Shown here piece after piece: positions 49,875-61,911 of a stretch of 61,911 nucleotides of DNA (position 1 is its first letter; each line of letters begins with the position of its first letter). The DNA lies in contig CASGAD010000004.1 in NCBI GenBank assembly GCA_949299335.1, positions 1-61,911 of the forward strand. The letters are read 5' to 3'. The notes below the pieces were generated by a model. It did not search any database and was not told the DNA's origin. It worked only from the letters and a program-made list of their open reading frames with translations. A program made the position numbers and the translations under genes. This stretch comes from an uncultured bacterium. Its GTDB lineage: Bacteria > Bacillota_I > Bacilli_A > RFN20 > CAG-826.

Positions 49875-50306
49875 TTAGTCTTCGTTTGGTGTGTAGACTA
49901 AGAAATAAATTGAAGTAGCGATTCCGATAAGTGTGATAATTAATACAAATATCAATGAGTTTTGTGGATTATAGCTTATATTAATAAATTTTGAACAAAG
50001 TGTAGTAATTGAAAATGCTAAAGCTACTGTCCAAGATGAGATATTGAAAATAGAAACGACTTTTTCATCTACACTTGAAACGAAAGCAAATGCTAAATTA
50101 GTTAATGTAATGACACCTATTAAACAAACGAGTGTGCCTAAAACTGAACTAACTGATAAATTCTCTAAACTTGCGAAATCATAGCCATTATAGTAATTGC
50201 CGGTTACGTTTTGAACGTGATAAGCAAATGTTCCAAACAAAACGAGTGCAAAGATGGCAAGGATTAAAGTAGAAGAGATTGCTAATTTTTTCTTTGATAA
50301 TACCAT
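49875..50306 (-). CDS. Small four-helix membrane protein of unknown function
   Basis: 143 residues with four hydrophobic segments: ISSTLILAIFALVLFGTFAY near the N-terminus, VLGTLVCLIGVITLTNLAFAFV, SSWTVALAFSITTLC, and IFVLIITLIGIATSIYFLV at the C-terminus. No family recognised. Start ATG 50306 has AAGGAG upstream; a longer frame to 50327 is less likely. It lies directly upstream of the infC promoter, in the same direction. Confidence 0.65.
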   Translation of the reverse strand: MVLSKKKLAISSTLILAIFALVLFGTFAYHVQNVTGNYYNGYDFASLENLSVSSVLGTLVCLIGVITLTNLAFAFVSSVDEKVVSIFNISSWTVALAFSITTLCSKFINISYNPQNSLIFVLIITLIGIATSIYFLVYTPNED

Positions 50307-50491
50307 AAATTTCTCCTTGAGCCTCAATAGTTAATATTTTATAAATCTTTAGATTTTTTTCAACAATATATTGAAGGTCTAAGTAAATATTTTTGATTTT
50401 TCAATTCTAATTTAGGTTTATTGTGAAATAAATTATATTTATTTTTAAATAAATTTATTTATAATGAATTTTGGAATTGAGGAAATTATAG

Positions 50492-51139
50492 ATGAAAAAA
50501 GTCTTAGTGTTTGATTTTGATGGAACTTTATGCCACTCATTAGAGCTAGTTAAATTAGGAATGAAAGAGGCAATTACTAAATGTTCTAATTTAGAAATGG
50601 AAGATAATGTTTTGCTTAAATACTTTGGTCCAAATGAAGAAGGCATTTTGTTAAAAATATTAGGTGAAAAAGTATATAAAGATGCTTTTTATCAATACTT
50701 ATTAACTTATTATCAAAATCATGATCAATACGTTAAAGATTTTTTCCCAAATTTAAGAAAACTATTAGAAAAATTAAATAAAGATGGATTTACCATTTAT
50801 TTATTAACTGGAAGAAGCGTTGAAAGTTTAATGATTTCGTTAACTAAACTTGAGGCCTTTAATCTTTTTAAGGGATATTATACTGGAGGATTAAATGGTG
50901 CGATTAAAGACGAATTATTGCTTAAACTTTTAAAAGATCATAACTTAAGTAAGGAAGATATTATATATATTGGTGACTCTATTAAAGATGTAATTCAATG
51001 TCAAAAAATCGGCGTAAAAATTATTAGTGGACTATATGACAATTTTGAAAGTCATGAAGGAGTTAAAGAATTAAATCCTTACTTAATCGCAACAAATATT
51101 GAGGATTTAGAGGCTTTAATTTATAAAGAGGCATTATAA
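50492..51139 (+). CDS. HAD-superfamily hydrolase (phosphoglycolate phosphatase-like)
   Basis: A 215-residue HAD phosphatase. Motif I FDFDGTLCHS is near residue 9, motif II Thr lies in YLLTGRSVESL, and motif IV is in IIYIGDSIKDV. A four-helix cap region lies between motifs I and II. The substrate is not identifiable. An SD GAGGAA precedes the ATG, and the gene ends immediately before the DUF1275 gene. Confidence 0.88.
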   Translation: MKKVLVFDFDGTLCHSLELVKLGMKEAITKCSNLEMEDNVLLKYFGPNEEGILLKILGEKVYKDAFYQYLLTYYQNHDQYVKDFFPNLRKLLEKLNKDGFTIYLLTGRSVESLMISLTKLEAFNLFKGYYTGGLNGAIKDELLLKLLKDHNLSKEDIIYIGDSIKDVIQCQKIGVKIISGLYDNFESHEGVKELNPYLIATNIEDLEALIYKEAL

Positions 51140-51931
51140 GTGAATAAGCAAAAGAAAAATAAAATTCATTATTTGAGTTTTTTAGTAGCCATAATTGCAT
51201 GTTTAGCTAGTGGAATTTTAGATGGCTATTCATACTTATTTAAAGGTAATTTTGGATTAATTCAAACTGGTAACTTAATAAACAGTGTTTTCTATTTATT
51301 AAATGGTCAATTCTATACATTTATTACAACGTTTTCCAATATAATATGTTTTTGTATTGCTATTTTTATTGCACATTATATTGAGTTTAAATTAAAAGAT
51401 AAAAATCTTGATATCAAAAATATTGAGATTATTATCATTTTAGTTTTGATAGCTATTAATATGTGCATTCCTAATTCATTCGAAGCTAGTGAAGGAGAAG
51501 TGACACTTAATAGATGGATTTGGGTAAATATACTTTCTAATTGCATATTTGCTTTTGTGGGTGCCTTTATTTTTAGAGCTTTTATGGAATTTAATGGCAA
51601 TACTTATGTTAGTACGATGATGACAGCGAATATGACTAGATTTGTTGGCGCATCTTTTAATGGCACAATAAAAAAAGAAAAAGGTGAAAATTTAAAGGCC
51701 TTACAATATTTATTAATTATTTTAAGTTTTGTAATCGGTATTGGAGTAATTTATATATTTTATCGTTACTATTTTTTAGAAAATGTTAATGACAATTCTC
51801 TATTTTTCTTTAACTATATTCCTAATTTAATGTTAATCGCACCTTTAGTGTTACTAACAATTTGCCTATTACTTAAAAGATATATTTATAAAATTAGCAA
51901 TAAAGAAGTTAATAATGAATCTTTGAAATAA
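51140..51931 (+). CDS. YoaK/DUF1275 family membrane protein
   Basis: 263 residues with about six helices, GTG start at 51140 directly after the HAD stop. The N-terminal ASGILDGYSYLFKGNFGLIQ and TGNLINSVFYLLNG match the DUF1275 motif (G-x-x-D...TGN). The function of the family is unknown. The 3' end overlaps the convergent GIY-YIG gene by 23 nt. Confidence 0.82.
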   Translation: MNKQKKNKIHYLSFLVAIIACLASGILDGYSYLFKGNFGLIQTGNLINSVFYLLNGQFYTFITTFSNIICFCIAIFIAHYIEFKLKDKNLDIKNIEIIIILVLIAINMCIPNSFEASEGEVTLNRWIWVNILSNCIFAFVGAFIFRAFMEFNGNTYVSTMMTANMTRFVGASFNGTIKKEKGENLKALQYLLIILSFVIGIGVIYIFYRYYFLENVNDNSLFFFNYIPNLMLIAPLVLLTICLLLKRYIYKISNKEVNNESLK

Positions 51932-52760
51932 TAAACTCCTTGAATGAGAGTTTGCTACGCTTATCGCAAAAAGTATCTGCATCGATATTTAAGTCAATAT
52001 AATAAGGCTTATCTTTTCTAACAAAAAGGTTTCCATCATCATCTAATGATGCTTTAAAGGTATTTGCTGGAATTCTAATTAAATAAAGAGTATTTGTTAT
52101 TTGATTATTAAGAATTAAATCCCAATCTTTTTTAAGAAATTCAGTTTTTGGGTTTATCCAAAAAATATTTTTGTTTTCTTGCAATTTCCCATAAGATTTA
52201 ATTTTTAATAATTTAATTTTTTGTTCTTCAAGAAATTTAAGCGCCTCGCCCTTTGCTCTTACTGCAATATCTTTGTTGCTCATAACAGGGATGGTCTTAA
52301 TTATCGATTCTTTCTTTTTGTCTTTCGAGAAAACATCTACTCCAATGAGCTGCAGAATAAATAGTGCTTCATCTAAATATTGATCTAATAATTTTTTTGT
52401 AAATTTATCTAAATTTGATTTATTACCATCAGTTTTATTATCGCAATCCAAGGTTCCACATTCTTGGGCTTTAGATATAAGTGAAGCTTCTAAATATGTA
52501 ATATATGATTGATTAAGTTCATCATTTTTAGAAGTCAATAAAATTACTTTTTCCCACCAATCTTTTTTAAGTAAATGATGTTTTATTCTTTGTCTTAAAT
52601 CTGTAGATTGCCCGACATAAACCTTTTCAGAAGATAGAAGTAAATACACGCCATATTTATCACATGAATCATCGTTCAACAAAATATCAGTTGAATCCCT
52701 TGGGCACGAATAAAGGATCCCTCCTAAATCCCATCCATCAGACTCACTAACATATGTCAT
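51909..52760 (-). CDS. GIY-YIG nuclease-domain protein, N-terminus displaced by a frameshift
   Basis: 283 residues with a GIY-YIG domain at about 35-130: YGVYLLLSSEKVYVGQSTDL corresponds to the GIY and YIG signature with a following Arg. The C-terminal half is compatible with a DUF4357-type tail. Relatives begin about 20 residues earlier with a KKIELYLxxGTxNG strand. That stretch is present upstream (IELYLYNGTLNG) but has no in-frame start: it connects to ATG 52814-52816 only if one A is added to a six-A run (T6 at 52796-52801). Stand-alone members are often of unknown function, sometimes defence-linked. Confidence 0.75.
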   Translation of the reverse strand: MTYVSESDGWDLGGILYSCPRDSTDILLNDDSCDKYGVYLLLSSEKVYVGQSTDLRQRIKHHLLKKDWWEKVILLTSKNDELNQSYITYLEASLISKAQECGTLDCDNKTDGNKSNLDKFTKKLLDQYLDEALFILQLIGVDVFSKDKKKESIIKTIPVMSNKDIAVRAKGEALKFLEEQKIKLLKIKSYGKLQENKNIFWINPKTEFLKKDWDLILNNQITNTLYLIRIPANTFKASLDDDGNLFVRKDKPYYIDLNIDADTFCDKRSKLSFKEFIISKIHY

Positions 52761-52816
52761 TCCGTTGAGTGTCCCGTTATAAAGATATAATTCAATTTTT
52801 TGGCTTTTGCATTCAT

Positions 52817-53175
52817 AATTACTACCTTAAACAGTTTATCAGATTGAATATTATTTAACCGGATCTACTATTTGTTTCAAACAATTTAAAACATAGTAAT
52901 AAGTAATGAAATTAAGGAAATTGATTAAACCTTTTCGTGAATAAATTATTAAGTATTTAGGTTCGATGTTTGAGGTGGTTTGCTTTTAAATAATAGGTCA
53001 TTTAAAACAAAAAAATGCCGATATAATCGGCATAATTTTCATTTTGGTGACCTTGAGGCGACTAAAACCCTGTTTATTTATAATTAAAATTTATAATTTT
53101 AATTAAAATTAGTTATTTTTATTAATATAATTTATGTAAATATTTTCAATATTTAAGAATTGTATCAAAAATGTA
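52817..53175. other. Noncoding region at the left edge of the accessory element
   Basis: 359 nt with no gene. It contains the terminator at 53008-53033, a tRNA-3'-end-like stretch at 53040-53071, a sequence resembling a dif site (53115-53142), and an 8-bp direct repeat TGTATCAA at 53161-53168 and 53172-53179. It is a plausible attachment-site region for the element to the right. Confidence 0.5.
53008..53033 (-). terminator. Terminator of the repressor operon
   Basis: ATGCCGAT, ATA loop, ATCGGCAT (53015-53033). On the minus strand it is followed by seven T residues, so it ends transcripts coming from the XRE genes at 53176-54387. Confidence 0.85.
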
Positions 53176-53454
53176 TCAACTATTTTTATTTGTTTTTATC
53201 TTATCAACAATGGAAGAAATATTTTTTAGTTTTTTATAATCTTCTATGGAAATTGATACTGTTTTTTCATCACCAATTAATTCGTTTATTGAAATATTGT
53301 ATAGAGTCGATAATTTTTTAAGTTGGGATAATTTAATGTCGTTTTTTTCTAGTTCGATATTAGAATAATTTGCTTGTGAAATATTAAGATATTTTGCTAT
53401 ATCTTTTTGCTTGAATTTATTTTTTTGTCTATAAAATTTTAAATTATTCATCAA
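53176..53454 (-). CDS. XRE-family transcriptional regulator (second)
   Basis: 92 residues with a Cro/C1-type HTH: LKFYRQKNKFKQKDIAKYLN followed by ISQANYSNIELEKNDIKLSQLKKLSTLYNISINELIG. A short C-terminal helix follows. It is the last gene of a three-gene minus-strand operon and its start overlaps the end of the preceding gene by 11 nt. Either of the first two Met codons could be used. Similar pairs of small XRE proteins control prophage and ICE gene expression. Confidence 0.85.
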   Translation of the reverse strand: MMNNLKFYRQKNKFKQKDIAKYLNISQANYSNIELEKNDIKLSQLKKLSTLYNISINELIGDEKTVSISIEDYKKLKNISSIVDKIKTNKNS

Positions 53455-54061
53455 AATCTTTTATTTTATTAAGTTCATCTAAAGCCTTACCAGAATTGAA
53501 GAAGAAGTTTAAAAAATCCGTACATTGCTTTATTTGGCTATCTAATTTAACATGATCTTCTTTGTTTTCTGATGTATAGGAAAATACGTAGCTTATAATT
53601 TCTATGTTTGCTGGTAGAAATTGTTGTAGGATTTGCTTATATGTAAAACATTGTTGAGCTTTAACTAAGTAGCTGGAAATTTTAAATGTAAATTCAAGTA
53701 TACATATTTTGTTATCTTTAATTAGAAGAAAATCACAGCGATTATTCCTTGTATATGGTATTGAATATTCCTGGATAAGTTTTGCATCTCTTCTTATTTC
53801 TTCGTTTAAGTTTTGGCTTTCAAATATTCTGTATATTAAACTTAAGGAATCTATCCAAGATAAAATGTCTTTGTTTGAATATTTTTTATTTTCGCTAATG
53901 TTAGAAGTAAGTTCTTTGAAAAGTGTAGAATTTTCTAATTTTTCTAATCTTTCATCCCAACTTACATCAGAAATTATCCATTTATTTATTTTTGGATATC
54001 TCTTTTTGATGTCTGAGAAATTAGTAAAAAAATTAATACAATTTTTTGACTCTATAATCAT
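53444..54061 (-). CDS. Protein of unknown function with possible PD-(D/E)xK nuclease core
   Basis: 205 residues, not recognised as a named family. The centre reads IPYTRNNRCDFLLIKDNKICILEFTF, which follows the restriction-endonuclease-like pattern R-x-D-hh...hhh-E-x, with Asp and Glu about ten residues apart. The Lys of ExK is replaced by Thr, although a Lys follows. A helix KAQQCFTYKQILQQFLP comes next, as in DUF2075-type proteins. No membrane segment. It lies between two XRE repressors and overlaps the downstream one, so it is probably coexpressed; a nuclease or a regulator partner are both open. Confidence 0.6.
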   Translation of the reverse strand: MIIESKNCINFFTNFSDIKKRYPKINKWIISDVSWDERLEKLENSTLFKELTSNISENKKYSNKDILSWIDSLSLIYRIFESQNLNEEIRRDAKLIQEYSIPYTRNNRCDFLLIKDNKICILEFTFKISSYLVKAQQCFTYKQILQQFLPANIEIISYVFSYTSENKEDHVKLDSQIKQCTDFLNFFFNSGKALDELNKIKDFDE

Positions 54062-54063
54062 TA

Positions 54064-54387
54064 TTAGTCTCCGTTTTTTAAGTTAATAATTCCGTGATTA
54101 TCGTTTATTACATTAGTTTGATTATTTATTTTGCTAAATATTCTATTTAGGTCGTCAATATCTTTTTGACTTAAAATTATATAATTTTCAGTACTATTTT
54201 TTCTTAGGAGTTGCATAGGCGATATTTCTAAATAATCACAAATAAGTAAAAAATTATCTAAAGTAAGTCGTATTTTTGATGATTCAATATCCCTATAAGT
54301 ACCTTGCGATATATTTAAATAATTTGCAATTTTTGCTTGAGAAATTTTTTTTGCTTCTCTTATTTTTCTTATTTCATCGATTATCAT
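54064..54387 (-). CDS. XRE-family transcriptional repressor (first)
   Basis: 107 residues. The N-terminal HTH is IREAKKISQAKIANYLNISQG followed by TYRDIESSKIRLTLDNFLLICDYLEISPMQLL; the C-terminal 40 residues are coil-like. First gene of the minus-strand operon, 2 nt before the nuclease-like gene. Its promoter overlaps that of the plus-strand gene block, an arrangement as in the C1/Cro switch, and inverted repeats there are candidate operators. Confidence 0.87.
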   Translation of the reverse strand: MIIDEIRKIREAKKISQAKIANYLNISQGTYRDIESSKIRLTLDNFLLICDYLEISPMQLLRKNSTENYIILSQKDIDDLNRIFSKINNQTNVINDNHGIINLKNGD

Positions 54388-54430
54388 ACTTATATTTTAT
54401 TTTTTCAGAGTAATATACGCTATTTAGTTA

Positions 54431-54487
54431 TTGACAATATCGTTATAAACTACAATAATAAAAGTAAATTGTAGTAATAGACTACAT
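54431..54487. promoter_or_regulatory. Divergent promoter/operator region of the accessory element
   Basis: Plus promoter: TTGACA 54431-54436, 17-nt spacer, AATAAT 54454-54459. A minus-strand TTGTCA (complement of 54432-54437) overlaps it. Three related half-sites follow: CTACAAT at 54450-54456, its inverse ATTGTAG at 54468-54474, and ACTACAT at 54481-54487. The spacing puts them over the plus -10 and start point, as for repressor operators. Confidence 0.7.
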
Positions 54488-54508
54488 TATGATCTTTTGG
54501 GAGTGTAT

Positions 54509-54679
54509 ATGATTGATTTAACTAATGAAATAAAATTAGGCAAATCTAATAGATATCATATTAGAGTTGCAGTGTGGCAAAAAAGAAATAATAGGATAAT
54601 GCCGAAAAAATTAAAAAGAAAACTTTATGAGGGAACTTATAAGGTGGAGCTTAATAAGAATGATTTAAAAAATCTTTAG
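54509..54679 (+). CDS. Small basic protein, early gene of the element
   Basis: 56 residues, very basic (KKLKRKLYEGTYKVELNKND), no family recognised. ATG 54509 has GGGAG 5 nt upstream; a TTG 12 nt earlier is possible but unneeded. First plus-strand gene after the divergent promoter, so probably expressed early when the XRE repressor is released. Confidence 0.6.
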   Translation: MIDLTNEIKLGKSNRYHIRVAVWQKRNNRIMPKKLKRKLYEGTYKVELNKNDLKNL

Positions 54680-54717
54680 TTTTAAATCATCAGATAAGGT
54701 TGCTAGAAATTATTTTT

Positions 54718-54999
54718 ATGGAGATTAAAAAGAATAGATTTTATTTAAATAAAAAAACAAAACATAATTCTTTCATTCTCAATCCAGGTAATAAAAAATC
54801 AAGTAGCTTAGACTTAACTCATCATCCTTCAAAAAAACATTTAAACGAATATATGAAACTATTAATTAATCCGAATCCTTTAGATAAAAGTGAATCATAT
54901 ATAGGTTTAAAGGAAAGGGAGTTTGAAAATATTCATTATGTTCGTGAAAGAAAAAATCGGATATATTCATTCAGCTCAAAGGAAGTTTGTTCTTCCTAG
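54718..54999 (+). CDS. Small basic protein of unknown function
   Basis: 93 residues starting MEIKKNRFYLNKKTKHNSFI; the frame opens slightly earlier with a TTG at 54700. It is rich in Lys/Arg and Ser, with a C-terminal YVRERKNRIYSFSSKEV. No family recognised. Its final 60 nt are overlapped by another small frame (54938-55042). Confidence 0.6.
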   Translation: MEIKKNRFYLNKKTKHNSFILNPGNKKSSSLDLTHHPSKKHLNEYMKLLINPNPLDKSESYIGLKEREFENIHYVRERKNRIYSFSSKEVCSS

Positions 55000-55042
55000 A
55001 AGTAGAAGAGAAAATAAGAAATTTGGTGTGAAAGGTTGGTGA
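54938..55042 (+). CDS. Possible 34-residue basic protein overlapping the previous gene
   Basis: Frame from ATG 54938 reads MFVKEKIGYIHSAQRKFVLP and ends in a basic segment KKFGVKGW before TGA 55040-55042. It overlaps the end of the preceding gene by 62 nt in another frame. The next gene starts 9 nt later. The protein-like tail suggests it is real or that the two are parts of one frameshifted gene; no SD is obvious. Confidence 0.35.
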   Translation: MFVKEKIGYIHSAQRKFVLPRSRRENKKFGVKGW

Positions 55043-55050
55043 TTATTTAA

Positions 55051-55233
55051 ATGAGATACCGAGTTGTTAATTCTAATGATGACAATGTATTTATGACAAA
55101 TAAATTAAGCGAAGTTAAATGGTTTTTAAAGAATCATTATGTTGGTAGAGGATATGTTTCAAAGGGATATGGCAAAGATTATCAACAAAGATTTATTAGT
55201 AATGGTTTTGTTGATTTAAAAAAATTCAGATGA
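55051..55233 (+). CDS. Small protein of unknown function
   Basis: 60 residues (MRYRVVNSNDDNVFMTNKLS opening), mixed charge, with a Tyr/Gly-rich middle. No SD stronger than GGTGATTA. It is 8 nt after the preceding frame and overlaps the next gene by 4 nt (ATGA), so is probably cotranslated. No family recognised. Confidence 0.55.
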   Translation: MRYRVVNSNDDNVFMTNKLSEVKWFLKNHYVGRGYVSKGYGKDYQQRFISNGFVDLKKFR

Positions 55234-55616
55234 AAAAGAAATTTAAAAGACATTTTAGGATTTATTTAGTTAACAATCATCCGGCTTATATAGTTGATGA
55301 GAGTGGTGATGAGTATGTGTTTCATCGAACTTCTCATAAAAATAAAATAAGCAACAAATCAACGTTTGAAATTAGAGAAAATCCTATTATTGGCGATTTT
55401 AAACCAATGTATATCGCAAAGAGACGACAAACTGAAAAGAAAGGTAGATTTTCGAGAGTTAAATTACCAATTAAAAGAGATGTAAATATAAATTATGAGT
55501 TTATAGATTCAGATTTATTGGACAAAAAAACTCCCTCGAAACAGATTTATCAAAATCGTTCAACTACATCTGGGAGTAAAACTATTAAATCAAAAAGTAA
55601 AAAGGTTGTCAAATAG
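55230..55616 (+). CDS. Basic protein of unknown function
   Basis: 128 residues, strongly basic throughout, starting MKKKFKRHFRIYLVNNHPAY. The tail (TSGSKTIKSKSKKVVK) looks disordered and nucleic-acid-like. Nucleic-acid binding is plausible but only from charge. Confidence 0.6.
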   Translation: MKKKFKRHFRIYLVNNHPAYIVDESGDEYVFHRTSHKNKISNKSTFEIRENPIIGDFKPMYIAKRRQTEKKGRFSRVKLPIKRDVNINYEFIDSDLLDKKTPSKQIYQNRSTTSGSKTIKSKSKKVVK

Positions 55617-55624
55617 GTATTTAT

Positions 55625-55810
55625 ATGAATAAAGGTTATAAGATTTCGCAAAAATATCATTTACGTATGATGAAGAAAGCTGAAAAGAAAGGAAATAAAC
55701 AGCTTGCTTTATATCATAAAGAAATTTATGAAGATCAAATAAAGCATGGCAAAATTGTTGAACGTCCTATTCGTGAAGGCTACTACAAGATAATTTTTAA
55801 GGAACGTTAA
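55625..55810 (+). CDS. Small basic protein of unknown function
   Basis: 61 residues, MNKGYKISQKYHLRMMKKAE start, helical and Lys-rich, then a Tyr/Ile end (YYKIIFKER). Preceded by a gap of 8 nt and followed after 2 nt by the next gene. No family recognised. Confidence 0.6.
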   Translation: MNKGYKISQKYHLRMMKKAEKKGNKQLALYHKEIYEDQIKHGKIVERPIREGYYKIIFKER

Positions 55811-55812
55811 TT

Positions 55813-56073
55813 ATGGATAATAAGAGATTTCATTTTATAGGTTGGTGGAAAAATGGTGATGAAATGTCAATTTGTTCCATTGCGCCGACAAAGAAACAAG
55901 CTTGGATTAATGTTTTAAAAGGTCGTAAAAACGGAAAGTTTAAGTATAAAAAAGGTGATAACTTTCGATTAGTTTATCAAACTGAGGAAGATGTTGAGAA
56001 GATTTATAGAAGGCCTTATAAACACGGTCATACTACTTGGATAGTTGATGGTGATGATATAAAGAGAAATTAA
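55813..56073 (+). CDS. Small protein of unknown function
   Basis: 86 residues with a FHFIGWWKNGDEM start and several aromatic and basic residues (FRLVYQTEEDVEKIYRRPY). No family recognised. Its stop codon lies 1 nt before the first copy of the 26-nt repeat. Confidence 0.6.
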   Translation: MDNKRFHFIGWWKNGDEMSICSIAPTKKQAWINVLKGRKNGKFKYKKGDNFRLVYQTEEDVEKIYRRPYKHGHTTWIVDGDDIKRN

Positions 56074-56074
56074 T

Positions 56075-56100
56075 TGGGTTAGCTTCACCGAAAGAAAGCA
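56075..56100 (+). repeat. Hairpin-forming 26-nt repeat, copy 1
   Basis: Begins TGGGTTAGCTTCACCG and is identical over 26 nt to 56802-56827. GCTTC can pair with GAAAGC, leaving a bulged A and the loop ACCGAAA. It starts 2 nt after a stop codon and ends 6 nt before ATG 56107. Confidence 0.85.
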
Positions 56101-56106
56101 AGAGAT

Positions 56107-56367
56107 ATGAAATATAAGTTAGTAGTTGATAGTGATGAATTACGTTTAATTCATGACTGTATTAGTTATACATACACAGAAGGATCATTATTAAAGTCCT
56201 ACAGTGTAACTGAATTTATTAATTTAATGGACATTGTTGCTAATGCTTCTTTAGAAAATTATCAAGAAGCATATGACTTTGTAAAGTCAGTTGTTGGAAA
56301 CGATGTTTCCAGGCTTAGCAAAGAGTCTGTTGTTAAATTATTTGATTCTTTTAAAAAAGGAGGTTGA
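56107..56367 (+). CDS. Small acidic/helical protein of unknown function
   Basis: 86 residues, starting MKYKLVVDSDELRLIHDCIS. Unlike its neighbours it is not strongly basic and looks alpha-helical. No family recognised. It lies 6 nt after the 26-nt hairpin repeat, whose 3' end AGAAAGCAAGAG may act as its ribosome binding site. Confidence 0.6.
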   Translation: MKYKLVVDSDELRLIHDCISYTYTEGSLLKSYSVTEFINLMDIVANASLENYQEAYDFVKSVVGNDVSRLSKESVVKLFDSFKKGG

Positions 56368-56438
56368 TAAGATCCAGGGAATAGTCATGTGTGATTGGTC
56401 TTCGTTATTTATAAATAAACTGTTAAGGATTAGTAATT

Positions 56439-56801
56439 ATGAAATTTAAACATTCTTATAAATTCAAAGATTTACCTGAGGATAATCAATGCAAGTTTTG
56501 CGTAGATTCTGCTATTAACAATTATAAAAAGTTTAAGAAAACTTTTAAAAAGCGTTATCCAGATTATGACAAAGCTACTAAAGAATTAAAAGAAAATTAT
56601 GATTTCTATAATTCTTTTATTCAGAGTTGTTATCATTCAATGTTTCGTTCTAAAGCTATAAAAAAGGGCGATAAATTGAGTAAACATTATCATGATAACT
56701 GTTGTTTATTTATAGATTATGTAAAAAGGCCATTAAGTAATGAAGAAAAGAAACTTTGCTATGAAAAAGCGAAGGAAATGTCAAAATTTGACAAAAGTTA
56801 A
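56439..56801 (+). CDS. Cys/His-containing basic protein of unknown function
   Basis: 120 residues with CKFC near residue 19, an isolated Cys-x-x-x-His (SCYHS), HYHDNCCLF and a late Cys. The mixture could bind a metal ion, though no standard zinc-ribbon spacing is complete. The protein is helical and Lys-rich. Stop codon TAA lies directly before the second 26-nt repeat copy. Confidence 0.6.
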   Translation: MKFKHSYKFKDLPEDNQCKFCVDSAINNYKKFKKTFKKRYPDYDKATKELKENYDFYNSFIQSCYHSMFRSKAIKKGDKLSKHYHDNCCLFIDYVKRPLSNEEKKLCYEKAKEMSKFDKS

Positions 56802-56827
56802 TGGGTTAGCTTCACCGAAAGAAAGCA
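56802..56827 (+). repeat. Hairpin-forming 26-nt repeat, copy 2
   Basis: Identical to 56075-56100. It starts at the base after the stop codon of the preceding gene and ends 18 nt before ATG 56846, just upstream of the SD TGGAGG. Confidence 0.85.
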
Positions 56828-56845
56828 TTTTGGAGGTTTAAAAAA

Positions 56846-57307
56846 ATGGAAAATAAAGTATTTAAAAAATTAAATGAATTAAATAATGAAGATTGCAAGA
56901 ATCTTGAAGTCGTTAAGGTTGAATTACGTCATAATGTTTCAAAAGATTATGGACATACTTATTCTTGTGAAATGTTAGTTGGTCCATATCATGTAAAATT
57001 TAGAAAAAACTTTAGCGAGCTAAATTATTACTCAATTTTAATTGCTCAAAAGGACATTAAAGAAGGTAGTTTAGTCACTGTTAATGCTTATCGTAGATGG
57101 ACTAAGGGAATGGCCAAAAATGGTAAAGAATACCATCAAGTTCAGTTAATTTTTGGAAAAGATACATTTTTAACAAGAATGATAAGTGATTCTGAGTTAT
57201 CGTTATTTAATGATTTTATAAAACGTAAAATGATTAAAGAAATCGAGTGGGTAGAAGTACCTGCAAATATTGGTGTTGATGAGGAGGTTATTAGTTTAGA
57301 CGAATAA
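56846..57307 (+). CDS. Beta-rich protein, possibly ssDNA-binding
   Basis: 153 residues. The centre (YSCEMLVGPYHVKFRKNFS, SLVTVNAYRRWTKGMAKNG, KEYHQVQLIFGK) looks like a beta-barrel with basic and aromatic surface residues, as in OB-fold or gene V-type ssDNA-binding proteins; the tail is acidic (DEEVISLDE), a common SSB feature. This is a weak structural guess. A good SD TGGAGG precedes ATG 56846. Confidence 0.55.
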   Translation: MENKVFKKLNELNNEDCKNLEVVKVELRHNVSKDYGHTYSCEMLVGPYHVKFRKNFSELNYYSILIAQKDIKEGSLVTVNAYRRWTKGMAKNGKEYHQVQLIFGKDTFLTRMISDSELSLFNDFIKRKMIKEIEWVEVPANIGVDEEVISLDE

Positions 57308-57317
57308 CCCTTTTGCT

Positions 57318-57542
57318 ATGAGTAAAAGAAATTATTTAGCAGGAAAAAAATACGGATTATATTACAAAGATCTTTCTTTGGATGAAAAGGTAAAGATTAG
57401 AGATCGTTATTTACGTAAAACTAAAAATATTGAAATTAATAATACGTTTTTAAGGGCTAATCAAATTGAAAATCGTATTGATTTCTATTGTGGGGTTATT
57501 GATTATCTAAATAAAGTTATAAAAGATGAAAAAAAAGACTAG
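57318..57542 (+). CDS. Small basic helical protein of unknown function
   Basis: 74 residues, starting MSKRNYLAGKKYGLYYKDLS, Lys/Arg-rich and predicted helical. Its end overlaps the following secreted protein gene by 17 nt. No family recognised. Confidence 0.55.
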   Translation: MSKRNYLAGKKYGLYYKDLSLDEKVKIRDRYLRKTKNIEINNTFLRANQIENRIDFYCGVIDYLNKVIKDEKKD

Positions 57543-58824
57543 AGGAGTTTTATTGTGTGTTGCATCACTACTTATTTTAGGAAGTGCTGTAGCTGTTGTT
57601 GGAGTTGGTTCAAATGGCTTTAAAAATTGGGACACTTCTACTTGGTTTAAGGATGCTTTTAGTGGTGTTCAAATTGAAAGTAAAGTTTTTGAATACGATG
57701 GGGAGAATAAAGTTTTAGACATTGTTGTTCCAGAAAATGCAACTTATGAATTAACAATTACTAATTCAAATAACGAAATTGTAGATTCTTGCATTGAGAT
57801 TGGAATTTATAATTACAAAGTTGTTGTTAAAATTGGTGATTTGACTAAAGAATATAATGCAACATTAGAAATTGTCGAAAATTTAAATGAGGTTACTGAG
57901 GAAACAATAGTTAATGTTTCAAATGTAAATGGACTTAGATTTGTACAAAAAGCTGCTGTTAATAATGGGGATGGAACGTTTACTGAAACAATTACATATA
58001 CAACAAATGGGGATGTAACTAATAATTTTTATGTAACTTTAGCTTGGTCTCAAGATTATGTTGATGATGTTTATAATTATTATTCTGTTGATTTAAGCTT
58101 AGAAAGTAAAACTATAAGTATAACCAATAAGAAGGCTTGTCCTAAACAAGCTACTTTGAAAATCGTACATAATGATGATCCATCTATTAATGCTAGTTTA
58201 ACTATCGATTATAAAGTTAAAAAATTATCCAGTGCATCTATTACTATTAGTGGTGGTGAAAATTCTATTTTGCAAGATGGATTGAATTTAGTTCCTTCTA
58301 TCACTGCTCCTACTTATAGTGTCGGATCAATAGATATTGCTCGTGAAAGTGAAAATTTTTCAGTTAGTGGTAATATGAATTGGGCATCTGCAAGTGGTTA
58401 TTCAGGAGTCGGTCAAATTTTATCTCTTTCGACAGAGTTATACACTGCATATAGTGATTACAAATATAAAGGTACTAATTATGATTCATCTACTGATTTA
58501 TTAAAAGCTATGCAAAGCGAGATAACTAACGCTTTTAATTCTATTTATTCTCTTAGTGATAAAACTATTTCTTTTAATTTTTCTGCTTTAAAAGAAGCAT
58601 TAACTTATCAATATTCTTATAAAACATTTACGATTAACTATTCTAACGCAAATTTATATAGTGAATTTATAAATGAATTTAGCACATTGTGTTCGTCTCG
58701 AGGGAGTTCATATCGAGTAACTTTTAGTGCTTATGGTGTTAATAAATCGATTGATTTTAAAAATCTTTCTATGACTACTTTAAGTGGTGGTATTTCCTTA
58801 GATAACGAAAGTATTGTTTTTTAA
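57526..58824 (+). CDS. Secreted or N-anchored protein with Ig-like domain
   Basis: 432 residues. A Lys-rich N-terminus and hydrophobic stretch VLLCVASLLILGSAVAVVGVG act as signal or anchor. Residues about 45-110 (VFEYDGENKVLDIVVPE ... GDLTKEYNATLEIVE) look like a MBG/Ig-like beta-sandwich, then Ser/Thr-rich beta repeats follow. There is no C-terminal membrane helix or sortase LPxTG motif. First of five envelope-directed genes; could be a virion, pilus or surface protein. The ATG overlaps the previous gene. Confidence 0.65.
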   Translation: MKKKTRGVLLCVASLLILGSAVAVVGVGSNGFKNWDTSTWFKDAFSGVQIESKVFEYDGENKVLDIVVPENATYELTITNSNNEIVDSCIEIGIYNYKVVVKIGDLTKEYNATLEIVENLNEVTEETIVNVSNVNGLRFVQKAAVNNGDGTFTETITYTTNGDVTNNFYVTLAWSQDYVDDVYNYYSVDLSLESKTISITNKKACPKQATLKIVHNDDPSINASLTIDYKVKKLSSASITISGGENSILQDGLNLVPSITAPTYSVGSIDIARESENFSVSGNMNWASASGYSGVGQILSLSTELYTAYSDYKYKGTNYDSSTDLLKAMQSEITNAFNSIYSLSDKTISFNFSALKEALTYQYSYKTFTINYSNANLYSEFINEFSTLCSSRGSSYRVTFSAYGVNKSIDFKNLSMTTLSGGISLDNESIVF

Positions 58825-58845
58825 ATTTTATGGCTGAGGTTTTTT

Positions 58846-59409
58846 ATGCAAATTAAAAGTTTTAAAAAGTATTTTATTGGTATTACTTCAGCCATAATTT
58901 TATTTGGAATAGGTATTACATTTATATATTTATGGAAATCATCTAATGGTTTTAATAAAAATTTAGTTGGTTTTTATTTAAAATCTGATGATGAAAAATT
59001 ATATTTATATGATCAAAATATTACTTTTGATAGTAATAAAGAATATTGTTTCGAAATTATAGAAACATTAAATAATAATAGTTCATATGATGTTAATTTT
59101 GAAATATATAATGATTTTACATTTGAATACGAATCTATAATATATAAGTTTTCAGACCTTGCTGTAGATTTGAATGAAATTTTTAATTTAAAAATTGATG
59201 GAAAGAAATTTTATTTTTCAACTTATTATGATATTAATGACATTATTAGTTATAGCTTTGGTAATAATATTGTTATTGATGAATTAGCACTTGATGAATA
59301 TTATTTTAAATTTTCTGTTAAATCAAATAGTTCATATTTAGAATTTCCGTTTAATTATAAAATTCCTTTAGTTGAGATTAATTTAGATATTCCCGGGGTT
59401 ATATTTTGA
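58846..59409 (+). CDS. N-anchored extracytoplasmic protein
   Basis: 187 residues. One N-terminal membrane helix (YFIGITSAIILFGIGITFIYL) is followed by a beta-rich acidic extracytoplasmic domain. No family recognised. GAGG lies a few nt before ATG 58846. Its TGA stop overlaps the following TTG start, so the two are likely cotranslated. Confidence 0.62.
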   Translation: MQIKSFKKYFIGITSAIILFGIGITFIYLWKSSNGFNKNLVGFYLKSDDEKLYLYDQNITFDSNKEYCFEIIETLNNNSSYDVNFEIYNDFTFEYESIIYKFSDLAVDLNEIFNLKIDGKKFYFSTYYDINDIISYSFGNNIVIDELALDEYYFKFSVKSNSSYLEFPFNYKIPLVEINLDIPGVIF

Positions 59410-60809
59410 AAAATTTAATTTTGTTATCATTAATTAGTTTAAATTTTGTGAGCACTTATAATTCGAAAGATTATATTTTAAGTGAGTTAAAACAAGATAT
59501 TAAATTTGATGAAAATTCTTTTATTATTGATAAAAATTGTGCATTACATGAAGATTTTCAAGGAATTTTATTATATGAGCATTCTGATAATGATTTAATT
59601 TTTTACTTATTTAATCAAGCTGGTTTCGGTCTTTTAAATACAGATAATTGTAGAATTTTAATGTCATATAATGATTCAATTTATAATCATTATTCATTAG
59701 AGTTTTTAGGTAACTCAAACGACTTAAAGTTTTATAAATTTAAAATTAAAGATTTCTATGTCGATTATTCAATTAGCGAACGTACTTATAACATTGTAGA
59801 GTTTGAAATTAAGCAAGAAAGAGTTTTTGAAGGTGATAATGCTATTGGTGTTAAAGCTATTGATAACTATTATTCGTGTGATATCAGTCAAGAATATACT
59901 TATATAGATAATTCATATTCTATGAATGAATTAAAAACTTTAACTATCGATGTAAATGCTGATTATTTTAGAGTACCAGGTTCAAAAAATAATTATCCTA
60001 ATTTTGAAATAGTTCAAACTGATATTTTCTATATTTATTTCCTAATGCCTACTAATTATGGTGATTTAATTAGTATTGATATTGAGTGGTATGAAAATTT
60101 CGAGCATTATAGAGGCTATAATTCGAGTGATCCATTTTATGAACCAGAGGATTATTATGATTCTTATATTAATAAATATGTGAGAAAAATTATTAGTGAA
60201 GATGATAATACTTCATTAGATGCAAATAGTTTTTACTTCTTCAATCCTGCTAATTGGTTTGTTGGTGGGTCTAAAGGATATGACCTAAAAAATCTACAAT
60301 CTTTTGCTTTAAATGATTTGGATGAATTGAACAATAAAGAAAACAATTATTGCTTAACTAATAATTCCATTAATTTCATTAAAGAAAACTTAGCTAATTT
60401 GCAAACTGTTCCTTACGTCATAAGATTTGATGCAAAAGATTTTTGCCGTAGAGATTACTCAGTTGTTGGGGAATTTGGTGTTTTAGAATTTTATTACGAG
60501 ATAAAAAGATTTTATATGACTGATGTAGATGTGATTACTTGTACATTTAACAAAAATGGGGAAGTATATATTTTGCCGGTTGTTTCTAATACTAATAATA
60601 TAACGACAGGTGATAATATCGTGCCTAATAATGAATACTTGGCTTTAATTAAAAAGATAATTTTTATAGCTCTTATTATAATTTGTTTTATCTTATTATT
60701 ACCTATTATTCCTGCATTAATTAATTTAATAATTTTTATTATTTCTTTACCTTTTAGATTTATTAAACGGATTATTAAAACTTTTAAAAAGGAAAAGAAA
60801 GATGGATAA
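59406..60809 (+). CDS. Secreted protein with C-terminal membrane anchor
   Basis: 467 residues. N-terminal signal-like MKNLILLSLISLNFVSTYNS, a long beta-rich extracytoplasmic region, and near the end two close hydrophobic segments (IIFIALIIICFILLLPIIPA and LINLIIFIISLPF) followed by a basic tail. The TTG start (59406) has GGGG 7 nt upstream and overlaps the previous stop. This N-secreted, C-anchored architecture is that of filamentous-phage minor coat proteins (pIII-like) but also of other surface proteins. Confidence 0.62.
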   Translation: MKNLILLSLISLNFVSTYNSKDYILSELKQDIKFDENSFIIDKNCALHEDFQGILLYEHSDNDLIFYLFNQAGFGLLNTDNCRILMSYNDSIYNHYSLEFLGNSNDLKFYKFKIKDFYVDYSISERTYNIVEFEIKQERVFEGDNAIGVKAIDNYYSCDISQEYTYIDNSYSMNELKTLTIDVNADYFRVPGSKNNYPNFEIVQTDIFYIYFLMPTNYGDLISIDIEWYENFEHYRGYNSSDPFYEPEDYYDSYINKYVRKIISEDDNTSLDANSFYFFNPANWFVGGSKGYDLKNLQSFALNDLDELNNKENNYCLTNNSINFIKENLANLQTVPYVIRFDAKDFCRRDYSVVGEFGVLEFYYEIKRFYMTDVDVITCTFNKNGEVYILPVVSNTNNITTGDNIVPNNEYLALIKKIIFIALIIICFILLLPIIPALINLIIFIISLPFRFIKRIIKTFKKEKKDG

Positions 60810-60871
60810 ATTCAAATGGTTCTTTTATAGAAATAATTAAAAATAAATAATTTTATTGGAGGGCTAGCATA

Positions 60872-61246
60872 ATGAATAATAAATCTAATGTAATAAAATT
60901 GAGTTTATGTATCTTAATTTTAATTTCTTTTATTTATTTTATTTATTATGCTTTTGCCCCCTTTTTTATTTATTGTAGCTCTAAAGATACATCTATAGAT
61001 TTTCTAATTAATAATGTTTATCTCTGCGATTCTGATAAGAGAGGTATTCTCATTGAAAGTGATAGCAAAATGAGATTATTTGATTATGAAGGAAAGGCAC
61101 CTGATATTTTTATTAATAAGGAAACTTTTTATACGTTTAATTATTTAGATGGAATTTTTATTACATCTGAATCTAAATATTTTGTTTATGGGAGTGATTT
61201 CCTTTATGAAGAAAATACAAAAGTTCTCTATAAAAAGTTTAATTAA
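60872..61246 (+). CDS. Small membrane-anchored protein
   Basis: 124 residues. An N-terminal helix (LSLCILILISFIYFIYYAFAPFF) is followed by a short extracytoplasmic domain. A strong SD TTGGAGG precedes ATG 60872. Its last 41 nt overlap the next gene. No family recognised. Confidence 0.6.
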   Translation: MNNKSNVIKLSLCILILISFIYFIYYAFAPFFIYCSSKDTSIDFLINNVYLCDSDKRGILIESDSKMRLFDYEGKAPDIFINKETFYTFNYLDGIFITSESKYFVYGSDFLYEENTKVLYKKFN

Positions 61247-61859
61247 GAATAATTTATTTTTAATTATTAATTTATTTATTATTTTAATATTAACTATAAT
61301 TCTTAGTTGTTTTTTTAGCTCTTCATATAGACATGCTTATTTTTCTATTAAATATTTTATAGATTCTTTTAAATGTTATTTTGCTGCTGTTTTTAGAATT
61401 GAATTTTCTAATGAAGTATATACGACTTATGATTATATCGTAGATTTGAATCATGGTAATATTGCTAGCCCTTTTTTAAATTCTGTTGAATTTTATTTAC
61501 CAGTTAATTTTGATGATATAAACATTTATATTAAAGCAAGTTGGTTTACTTTTTGGAATTTTGAAAATTTTAAAAGCAGCTTTAATTTTATTTTTAATAT
61601 ACTTGAATATTTTAATATTGTTTTTTTAATTGTTGTTCTTTCTTTTACATTGTTGTTGATTGTTGACTCTTTGTATTTTTCTGAAAAGAAAAGTAATGTT
61701 GATGGTTTTACTCGAGGATCTAATTTTTATTTCTTAATTAATCGTAAGTTTTTTAAGTTTAGATTGTTCGTTGGAAAGAGGAAAATAAAAATAACCATAA
61801 TGAGGAATTTAAATACGCCAATATTGGTAACTAAATTTCAATATTGTATAAACTTATAA
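61206..61859 (+). CDS. Two-helix membrane protein
   Basis: 217 residues from ATG 61206 (MKKIQKFSIKSLIKNNLFL). The frame extends to 61149 but that part overlaps the previous gene. Two hydrophobic segments, LIINLFIILILTIILSCFF near the N-terminus and FNIVFLIVVLSFTLLLIVDSLYF about 140 residues later, bracket an extracytoplasmic aromatic-rich region; a basic C-terminus is cytosolic. No family recognised. Confidence 0.58.
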   Translation: MKKIQKFSIKSLIKNNLFLIINLFIILILTIILSCFFSSSYRHAYFSIKYFIDSFKCYFAAVFRIEFSNEVYTTYDYIVDLNHGNIASPFLNSVEFYLPVNFDDINIYIKASWFTFWNFENFKSSFNFIFNILEYFNIVFLIVVLSFTLLLIVDSLYFSEKKSNVDGFTRGSNFYFLINRKFFKFRLFVGKRKIKITIMRNLNTPILVTKFQYCINL

Positions 61860-61878
61860 AAAGAAAGGTTATACAAGA

Positions 61879-61911
61879 ATGAAATATGATATAGAAAGTG
61901 CCATATCAAGA
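61879..61911 (+). CDS. Start of a further gene, cut by the window edge
   Basis: ATG 61879 with AAGAAAGG 11 nt upstream begins MKYDIESAISR and is open to the window edge. Too short to identify. In a filamentous-phage order a morphogenesis ATPase or structural gene could be expected here, but nothing yet shows this. Confidence 0.5.
   Translation, partial: MKYDIESAISR

Follow-up and report, generated by a model that had tools for sequence, protein, structure and literature searches.

A tRNA-integrated element recurring in Bacilli and Clostridia, probably the provirus of a non-lytic virus with a membrane-embedded export ATPase

The stretch of DNA that we analysed (61,911 nucleotides; hereafter the window) is the entire contig C4 of a 1.42 Mb genome (37 contigs, 98% complete), and its right-hand end carries part of a discrete integrative element, inside which the window ends. 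The left border of this element lies at 53064, rather than at 53040 as given in a first-pass annotation of the sequence, directly after a 60-bp direct repeat of the 3' end of a tRNA-Arg gene. The repeat, attL (53004..53063, no strand assigned), comprises the tRNA-Arg(TCT) 3' end together with its terminator hairpin, and the second copy, attR, lies at the tRNA-Arg of contig C8 of the same genome, where the complete tRNA-Arg(TCT) was found at L007:288-364. In a BLAST comparison of element DNA with its own genome, left-end positions 53004-53073 matched C8 at 93% over 70 bp, with 58 of 60 bases identical within the att repeat, up to 53063. Because the 60-base repeat is the tRNA-Arg 3' end with its terminator hairpin, attL (ending at 53063) and attR on C8 were taken to enclose the element. 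A GIY-YIG gene (51909-52760) was ruled out as part of the element since it lies outside attL, and an Rfam search of 50000-61911 returned no match.

The left part of the element contains two minus-strand genes for XRE-family repressors (53176..53454 and 54064..54387; Pfam HTH_3, E 2.9e-11 and 1.5e-11, respectively), in agreement with the divergent XRE control proposed in the first-pass annotation. Related elements carry homologues of the first repressor at the corresponding end, and the second starts the divergent switch. Between both repressors, also on the minus strand, is the gene of a 205-aa protein (53444..54061) with a weak PADLOC match to the candidate defence family PDC-S41 (E 7.6e-7); it occupies a variable slot, of which the position but not the sequence is conserved among relatives. 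On the plus strand, the ORF list shows about eight small early proteins of 60-128 aa, mostly basic (54497..56801), a few of which have relatives in sister elements; those compared with Pfam gave no significant match. Next are the plus-strand genes of a 153-aa protein (56846..57307) and, again from the ORF list, of a 74-aa basic protein (57318..57542). The 153-aa protein is conserved directly 5' of the surface-protein genes (family in 9 loci, duplicates counted) and had no Pfam match; its gene position suggests that it may be a single-stranded DNA-binding protein. An attempt to link the SSB-like family of the window's type with that of the Clostridia type failed.

These genes are followed, as had been noted from the sequence, by consecutive plus-strand ORFs for secreted or membrane proteins of 432, 187, 467, 124 and 236 aa. 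All five ORFs are present, although the 236-aa ORF proved to be the N-terminal quarter of an interrupted ATPase of ~750 aa rather than a protein of its own. The 432-aa surface protein (57526..58824; family in 32 loci, duplicates counted) has an N-terminal membrane anchor and ends in the motif ...LDNESIVF, and the 187-aa surface protein (58846..59409; family in 15 loci, duplicates counted) has an N-terminal anchor and a similar C-terminal motif; short C-terminal motifs of this kind are common to many N-anchored proteins of several families. The 467-aa protein (59406..60809; family in 35 loci, duplicates counted) combines a signal peptide, a beta-rich ectodomain, C-terminal membrane helices and a basic tail, and would serve as a spike. 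Its AlphaFold model (pLDDT 79) resembled only Ig/FN3-like folds in the PDB (Z at most 7), and its top match in BFVD was ORF1 of Acholeplasma phage L2, a plasmavirus (Foldseek E 1.7e-4, next match 1.4e-2; TM-score low, 0.12-0.15). A sequence-profile match of the spike to L2-like prophages (E 8.9e-7) did not survive masking of the C-terminal helix and tail, and masked spike-slot proteins scored no higher against the ectodomain profile than shuffled controls did; this sequence match was therefore not counted as evidence.

Directly 5' of the ATPase gene lies the gene of a 124-aa one-helix membrane protein (60872..61246, plus strand), and a small one-helix ORF occupies the same place in nearly all related loci. 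It is 28-48 aa long in many Clostridia members versus 112-132 aa in Bacilli, the Bacilli protein being the Clostridia-type peptide with an extra domain of ~80 aa. A classical coat gene (30-90 aa, one transmembrane segment) was searched for in the window's element and none was found.

The ATPase gene itself is split. Alignment to full-length relatives placed its 5' part at 61149..61770 on the plus strand (likely start 61206; N-terminal membrane region) and its remainder at L007:3369-5030 on the minus strand of C8: the window's last ORF aligns with the N-terminal ~200 residues of relatives of ~750 aa, while the remaining residues are covered by the C8 ORF. From 61771 to the end of the contig at 61911 (no strand assigned) runs the start of a repeat, probably an insertion sequence, of which these last 141 bases are identical to the reverse complement of C7:1-141. 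The same inverted-repeat motif was found at both broken ends of the ATPase gene and on contigs C2, C7 and C21, and the break is flanked by a short direct repeat. The simplest reading is that one insertion sequence entered the ATPase gene at ~61771 and that its repeated body was lost from the assembly. Other genomes contain full-length ATPase relatives. With its ATPase gene probably split by an insertion sequence, this copy of the element is probably defective and probably cannot extrude.

Contig C8 (5,132 bases) supplies the missing right half of the element. Read in the direction of the window, it encodes the 553-aa fragment of the P-loop membrane protein, a 417-aa rolling-circle initiator (Pfam Rep_trans E 4e-23, Rol_Rep_N 1e-6), a 108-aa ORF, a 352-aa tyrosine integrase (E 7e-24) and the tRNA-Arg(TCT). 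The rolling-circle Rep, P-loop ATPase and closing attachment site that the first-pass annotation had proposed looking for to the right of the window are thus on C8, as is the integrase that it had missed in the window. We infer the adjacency of C4 and C8, which are separate contigs, from the split ATPase gene and the common att site; joined in this way, the element measures about 13.5 kb, the insertion sequence not counted. In a genome of the same genus (G014) the tRNA-Arg site is empty: it carries, in order, a HAD phosphatase, a DUF1275-like membrane protein, an intact tRNA-Arg and the next gene, with no element. The first two, for which we presume these names from the sequences rather than from a database, recur beside the element in the window (50492-51139 and 51140-51931), where the GIY-YIG gene and attL come after them. 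As the site is empty in G014, the region is not an ordinary chromosomal segment common to all relatives. With its tyrosine integrase, its direct repeats at a tRNA gene and the empty site in another genome, this is a site-specific integrative element, which bears out the earlier view that the region is mobile.

Relatives of the ATPase were present in 13 of 96 related genomes, with a patchy distribution, and a second one was found in the element's own genome. A scan of GTDB with one short sequence pattern gave 47 loci, mostly in metagenome-assembled genomes of Bacilli and Clostridia and many of them from gut or rumen according to their titles, for about 50 loci overall. Nine elements could be delimited by direct repeats; these are 11.0-17.0 kb long, and eight of the nine lie in tRNA genes (Arg, Cys, Glu, Ala, Leu, Arg, Thr and Lys). 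Some other loci are inside long contigs, with unrelated genes around them. The left part is constant in layout, with repressors facing left, small early genes and one to four N-anchored surface proteins, as is the right part, with the spike-like protein, the small one-helix membrane protein and the ATPase, followed in many cases by a Rep, and the integrase. Among loci with at least 3 kb of upstream DNA (n = 38), the order spike, small membrane protein, ATPase was found in 28 by spike family and in 36 by family or architecture; since it repeats in independent loci, the arrangement is not due to chance. The Rep adjoining the ATPase belongs to one of three unrelated rolling-circle families (Rep_trans, REP_ORF2-G2P or Rep_1), and this exchange of unrelated initiators at one slot argues for a rolling-circle mode of replication. 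No recognised Rep was located downstream in 18 of 46 loci, and the second copy in the host genome and locus L032 were without one. Pattern scans, which have limited sensitivity, matched one IMG/VR contig and one INPHARED record, the latter a human faecal scaffold with the same gene module, and no plasmid record in PLSDB; a single-protein pattern scan of IMG/VR gave no match. The lineage thus appears to be widespread in the gut and nearly missing from virus databases.

One explanation of these data is that the elements are decayed or domesticated, retained for their surface proteins or defence gene and no longer mobile as a type. The ATPase gene interrupted in this genome and the fragmentary state of some relatives are consistent with this explanation, but many copies are intact and full-length, have well-preserved direct repeats and occupy different tRNA genes, and we regard general decay as very unlikely.

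An AlphaFold model of the ATPase family (41 sequences, mean pLDDT 81.5) was compared with 672 PDB chains, among which the best match was the N-terminal domain of Zot from Neisseria (2r2a; Z 11.2, rmsd 3.5, 161 of 191 residues aligned). Rad51/RecA, TcpA, VirB4 and FtsK came next (Z 8.8 to 10.5); the advantage of Zot over the RecA, TcpA and FtsK chains was under 1 to 2.4 Z, a near tie, so that the model supports a Zot-like fold as a lead rather than as proof. At the level of sequence, none of the 41 ATPase members matched the Pfam Zot family (PF05707), and a search of the host genome with this family gave only a weak match, on contig C24 (E 0.04). In hhalign comparisons with profiles including Zot, FtsK, VirD4 and HerA, only the Walker A region aligned; Zot was the best of five (probability 36), and FtsK and VirD4 scored below it. 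The ATPases of this family have four N-terminal helices.

These structural scores bear on the possibility that the element is an integrative conjugative element, in which a single FtsK/TcpA-type motor would act with a Rep_trans relaxase, as in Tn916-like elements or AICEs, and the surface proteins would form a mating apparatus. TcpA and FtsK score close to Zot, Rep_trans also includes MobT relaxases (compare PMC6499999), and both Tn916/ICEBs1-type elements and AICEs carry a Rep_trans adjoining an ATPase of the FtsK-HerA superfamily, together with a tyrosine integrase. However, Pfam searches of the element recognised no second ATPase, VirB4/VirB6-like protein, cell-wall hydrolase or other mating-pair gene, searches of the host genome gave no match to VirD4 (PF02534) or DUF87/HerA (PF01935), and the FtsK and VirD4 profiles fell short of Zot. 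Relatives moreover carry plasmid- or phage-type Reps, the alternatives Rep_1 and REP_ORF2-G2P being replication initiators. Conjugation, raised in the first-pass annotation as an alternative to a phage, is made less likely because these searches found no coupling or mating ATPase in either element or host genome, and we consider it improbable.

We consider it probable (roughly 70%) that the element is the integrated provirus of a non-lytic virus that replicates by rolling circle and uses a membrane-embedded, probably Zot-type export ATPase. The gene order common to the loci and the Zot domain as the nearest solved fold of the ATPase both support a virus extruded through the membrane without lysis. 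Under this explanation, the XRE repressors would keep the provirus silent; upon induction, the tyrosine integrase would excise the element from tRNA-Arg and the Rep_trans initiator would replicate it by rolling circle, with the small binding protein possibly coating single strands. The N-anchored surface proteins and the spike would assemble in the membrane, through which the membrane-bound ATPase would push genome and surface proteins, and the spike would then dock on the next cell. The integration site, the empty site, the gene content and order, the Rep and integrase families and the recurrence of the element are observed, and predicted structure supports the Zot-like ATPase fold; extrusion, a virion, the function of the spike and the packaging of either single- or double-stranded DNA are inferred.

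Such a virus could take two forms, and the likelihoods that we attach to them overlap with that of the general provirus explanation, of which both are versions; between a filamentous, inovirus-like particle and a pleomorphic, enveloped, plasmavirus-like one the balance is close to even. In the enveloped form, the element would be a pleomorphic budding virus and a rolling-circle relative of plasmavirus L2 (NC_001447), its surface proteins being envelope spikes with no rigid coat. L2, the type of the Plasmaviridae, is an enveloped, pleomorphic virus of 12 kb that is thought to bud, and its prophage relatives occur in tRNA genes (PMC12662186). Like the element, L2 encodes anchored envelope proteins, and the genes matched here are in the same order, namely spike (ORF1), small membrane protein (ORF2, 81 aa), P-loop ATPase (ORF3), integrase and attP; XRE genes adjoin the att side in L2-like prophages as well. 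Besides the ORF1 match to the spike model, L2 ORF3 was the sixth-ranked match for the ATPase model, and the ORF3-type ATPase of the L2-like prophages that we collected is itself a Zot homologue by profile comparison (hhalign 97.9%). No PF00905 transpeptidase was found in the 98% complete host genome, and this single marker would fit a wall-less host, as for L2. However, the fold matches have low TM-scores (0.12-0.39), and after masking no significant sequence similarity to L2 remains except in the integrase. L2 also has no Rep and replicates bidirectionally, its 312-aa ATPase is without the four N-terminal helices, its ORF13 and ORF14 are anchored C-terminally rather than N-terminally, and many relatives of the element reside in Clostridia. 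The enveloped form is a serious possibility that falls somewhat short of an even chance.

In the filamentous form, the element would represent a new inovirus-like lineage, the tiny one-helix protein being the coat and the N-anchored proteins minor coat or tip proteins. Propionibacterium phage B5 (Paulinoviridae; AF428260), which is filamentous and infects a Gram-positive host, shows the same order of a 485-aa spike with signal peptide and C-terminal helix, a 90-aa membrane protein, a Zot ATPase and a rolling-circle Rep. Sequence homology between B5 and the element was not detectable, and B5 differs in its length of 5.8 kb, its three coat-like proteins of 27-57 aa and a Zot that is seen by Pfam. 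The one-helix peptides of 28-48 aa found 5' of the ATPase in many Clostridia members, and Rep families typical of single-stranded DNA replicons, also favour a filamentous particle, although the Bacilli peptide carries its extra domain and the window's element has no short coat gene. Inoviruses (Roux 2019, PMC6813254) share with the element a pI-like ATPase, here by a near-tied structural match, as well as a Rep and tRNA att sites, and an atypical N-terminal transmembrane form of pI is known among them (PMC6813254). The published detector, by contrast, relies on Zot as the closest Pfam domain, one or two transmembrane domains in pI and a coat of 30-90 aa (PMC6813254), and the element departs from this pattern; a canonical inovirus that does occur in this host family, and that has a true Zot and a coat-like protein of 66 aa, also looks different. 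The filamentous phage suggested in the first-pass annotation therefore stands in part: the Rep, the Zot-like best fold and the order seen in B5 agree with it, but there is no Zot sequence match and no short coat gene in this element, and L2 has the same order. Membership of the Inoviridae is not supported, because the ATPase has no Zot sequence match and four N-terminal helices and because the element lacks a coat gene of 30-90 aa, and a filamentous particle of a new lineage is only slightly less likely than the enveloped form.

It is also conceivable, though less likely than not, that these elements form a new provirus family in Bacilli and Clostridia of the gut and link plasmavirus L2 with the filamentous phages, with pleomorphic, budding, rolling-circle members that leave the cell non-lytically by a Zot-type ATPase; such a family would be a bacterial counterpart of the archaeal pleolipoviruses. 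Whichever form the particle takes, a provirus type that recurs at about 50 loci is nearly missing from virus collections, and inovirus detectors in current use, given the criteria published for them (PMC6813254), would not pick it up. According to the ICTV in 2018, plasmaviruses have only the integrase in common with other viruses (PMC12662186). The profile comparison of L2 ORF3 suggests that they also carry a Zot-type ATPase, so that the same exit motor may serve enveloped budding phages and filamentous ones, which would make phage budding approachable in more hosts.

Just beyond attL, flanked by a DUF1275-like gene and the provirus-like element, was a gene encoding a GIY-YIG protein (51909-52760) that matched the PADLOC candidate PDC-S14 (E = 5e-35). 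This gene was absent from the corresponding place in G014, a genome of the same genus in which the tRNA-Arg site is empty. Within the element, the slot between both repressors was taken by a 205-aa gene (53444-54061) with a weak match to PDC-S41, and was occupied by differing genes across sister elements; it may serve superinfection or defence functions.

Several of the surface proteins, including those encoded at 57526-58824 and 58846-59409, were otherwise unlike one another and had in common a motif of roughly L-x4-I-x-F at the extreme C-terminus, as if it were a common docking signal. In the Clostridia members L045, L054, L070 and L087, a conserved SSB-like gene (~113 aa) and/or basic gene (~90 aa) was located upstream of the surface-protein genes, and large serine recombinases replaced tyrosine integrases in some loci. 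Long genes followed the Rep gene of the element on a human faecal scaffold (L088, MT835493; 15004-25285) and are possibly its cargo.

The window's own genome contained a second, distinct member of the element family (L033, contig C16), with a 31% identical ATPase and without a recognised Rep. This genome, which is 98% complete, had zero matches to the PF00905 transpeptidase, and the host may thus lack a peptidoglycan wall. In another genome of the same host family (G047), a canonical inovirus (L099) encoded a true Zot as well as a coat-like protein of 66 aa.

Profile comparison (97.9%) also identified the plasmavirus ATPase family, comprising ORF3 of Acholeplasma phage L2 (L212:2278-3216) and its counterparts in L2-like prophages (L234-L246), as a Zot/pI homologue. 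A Zot/pI-type ATPase in plasmaviruses contrasts with the 2018 ICTV listing, in which the integrase was the only plasmavirus feature common to other viruses (PMC12662186).
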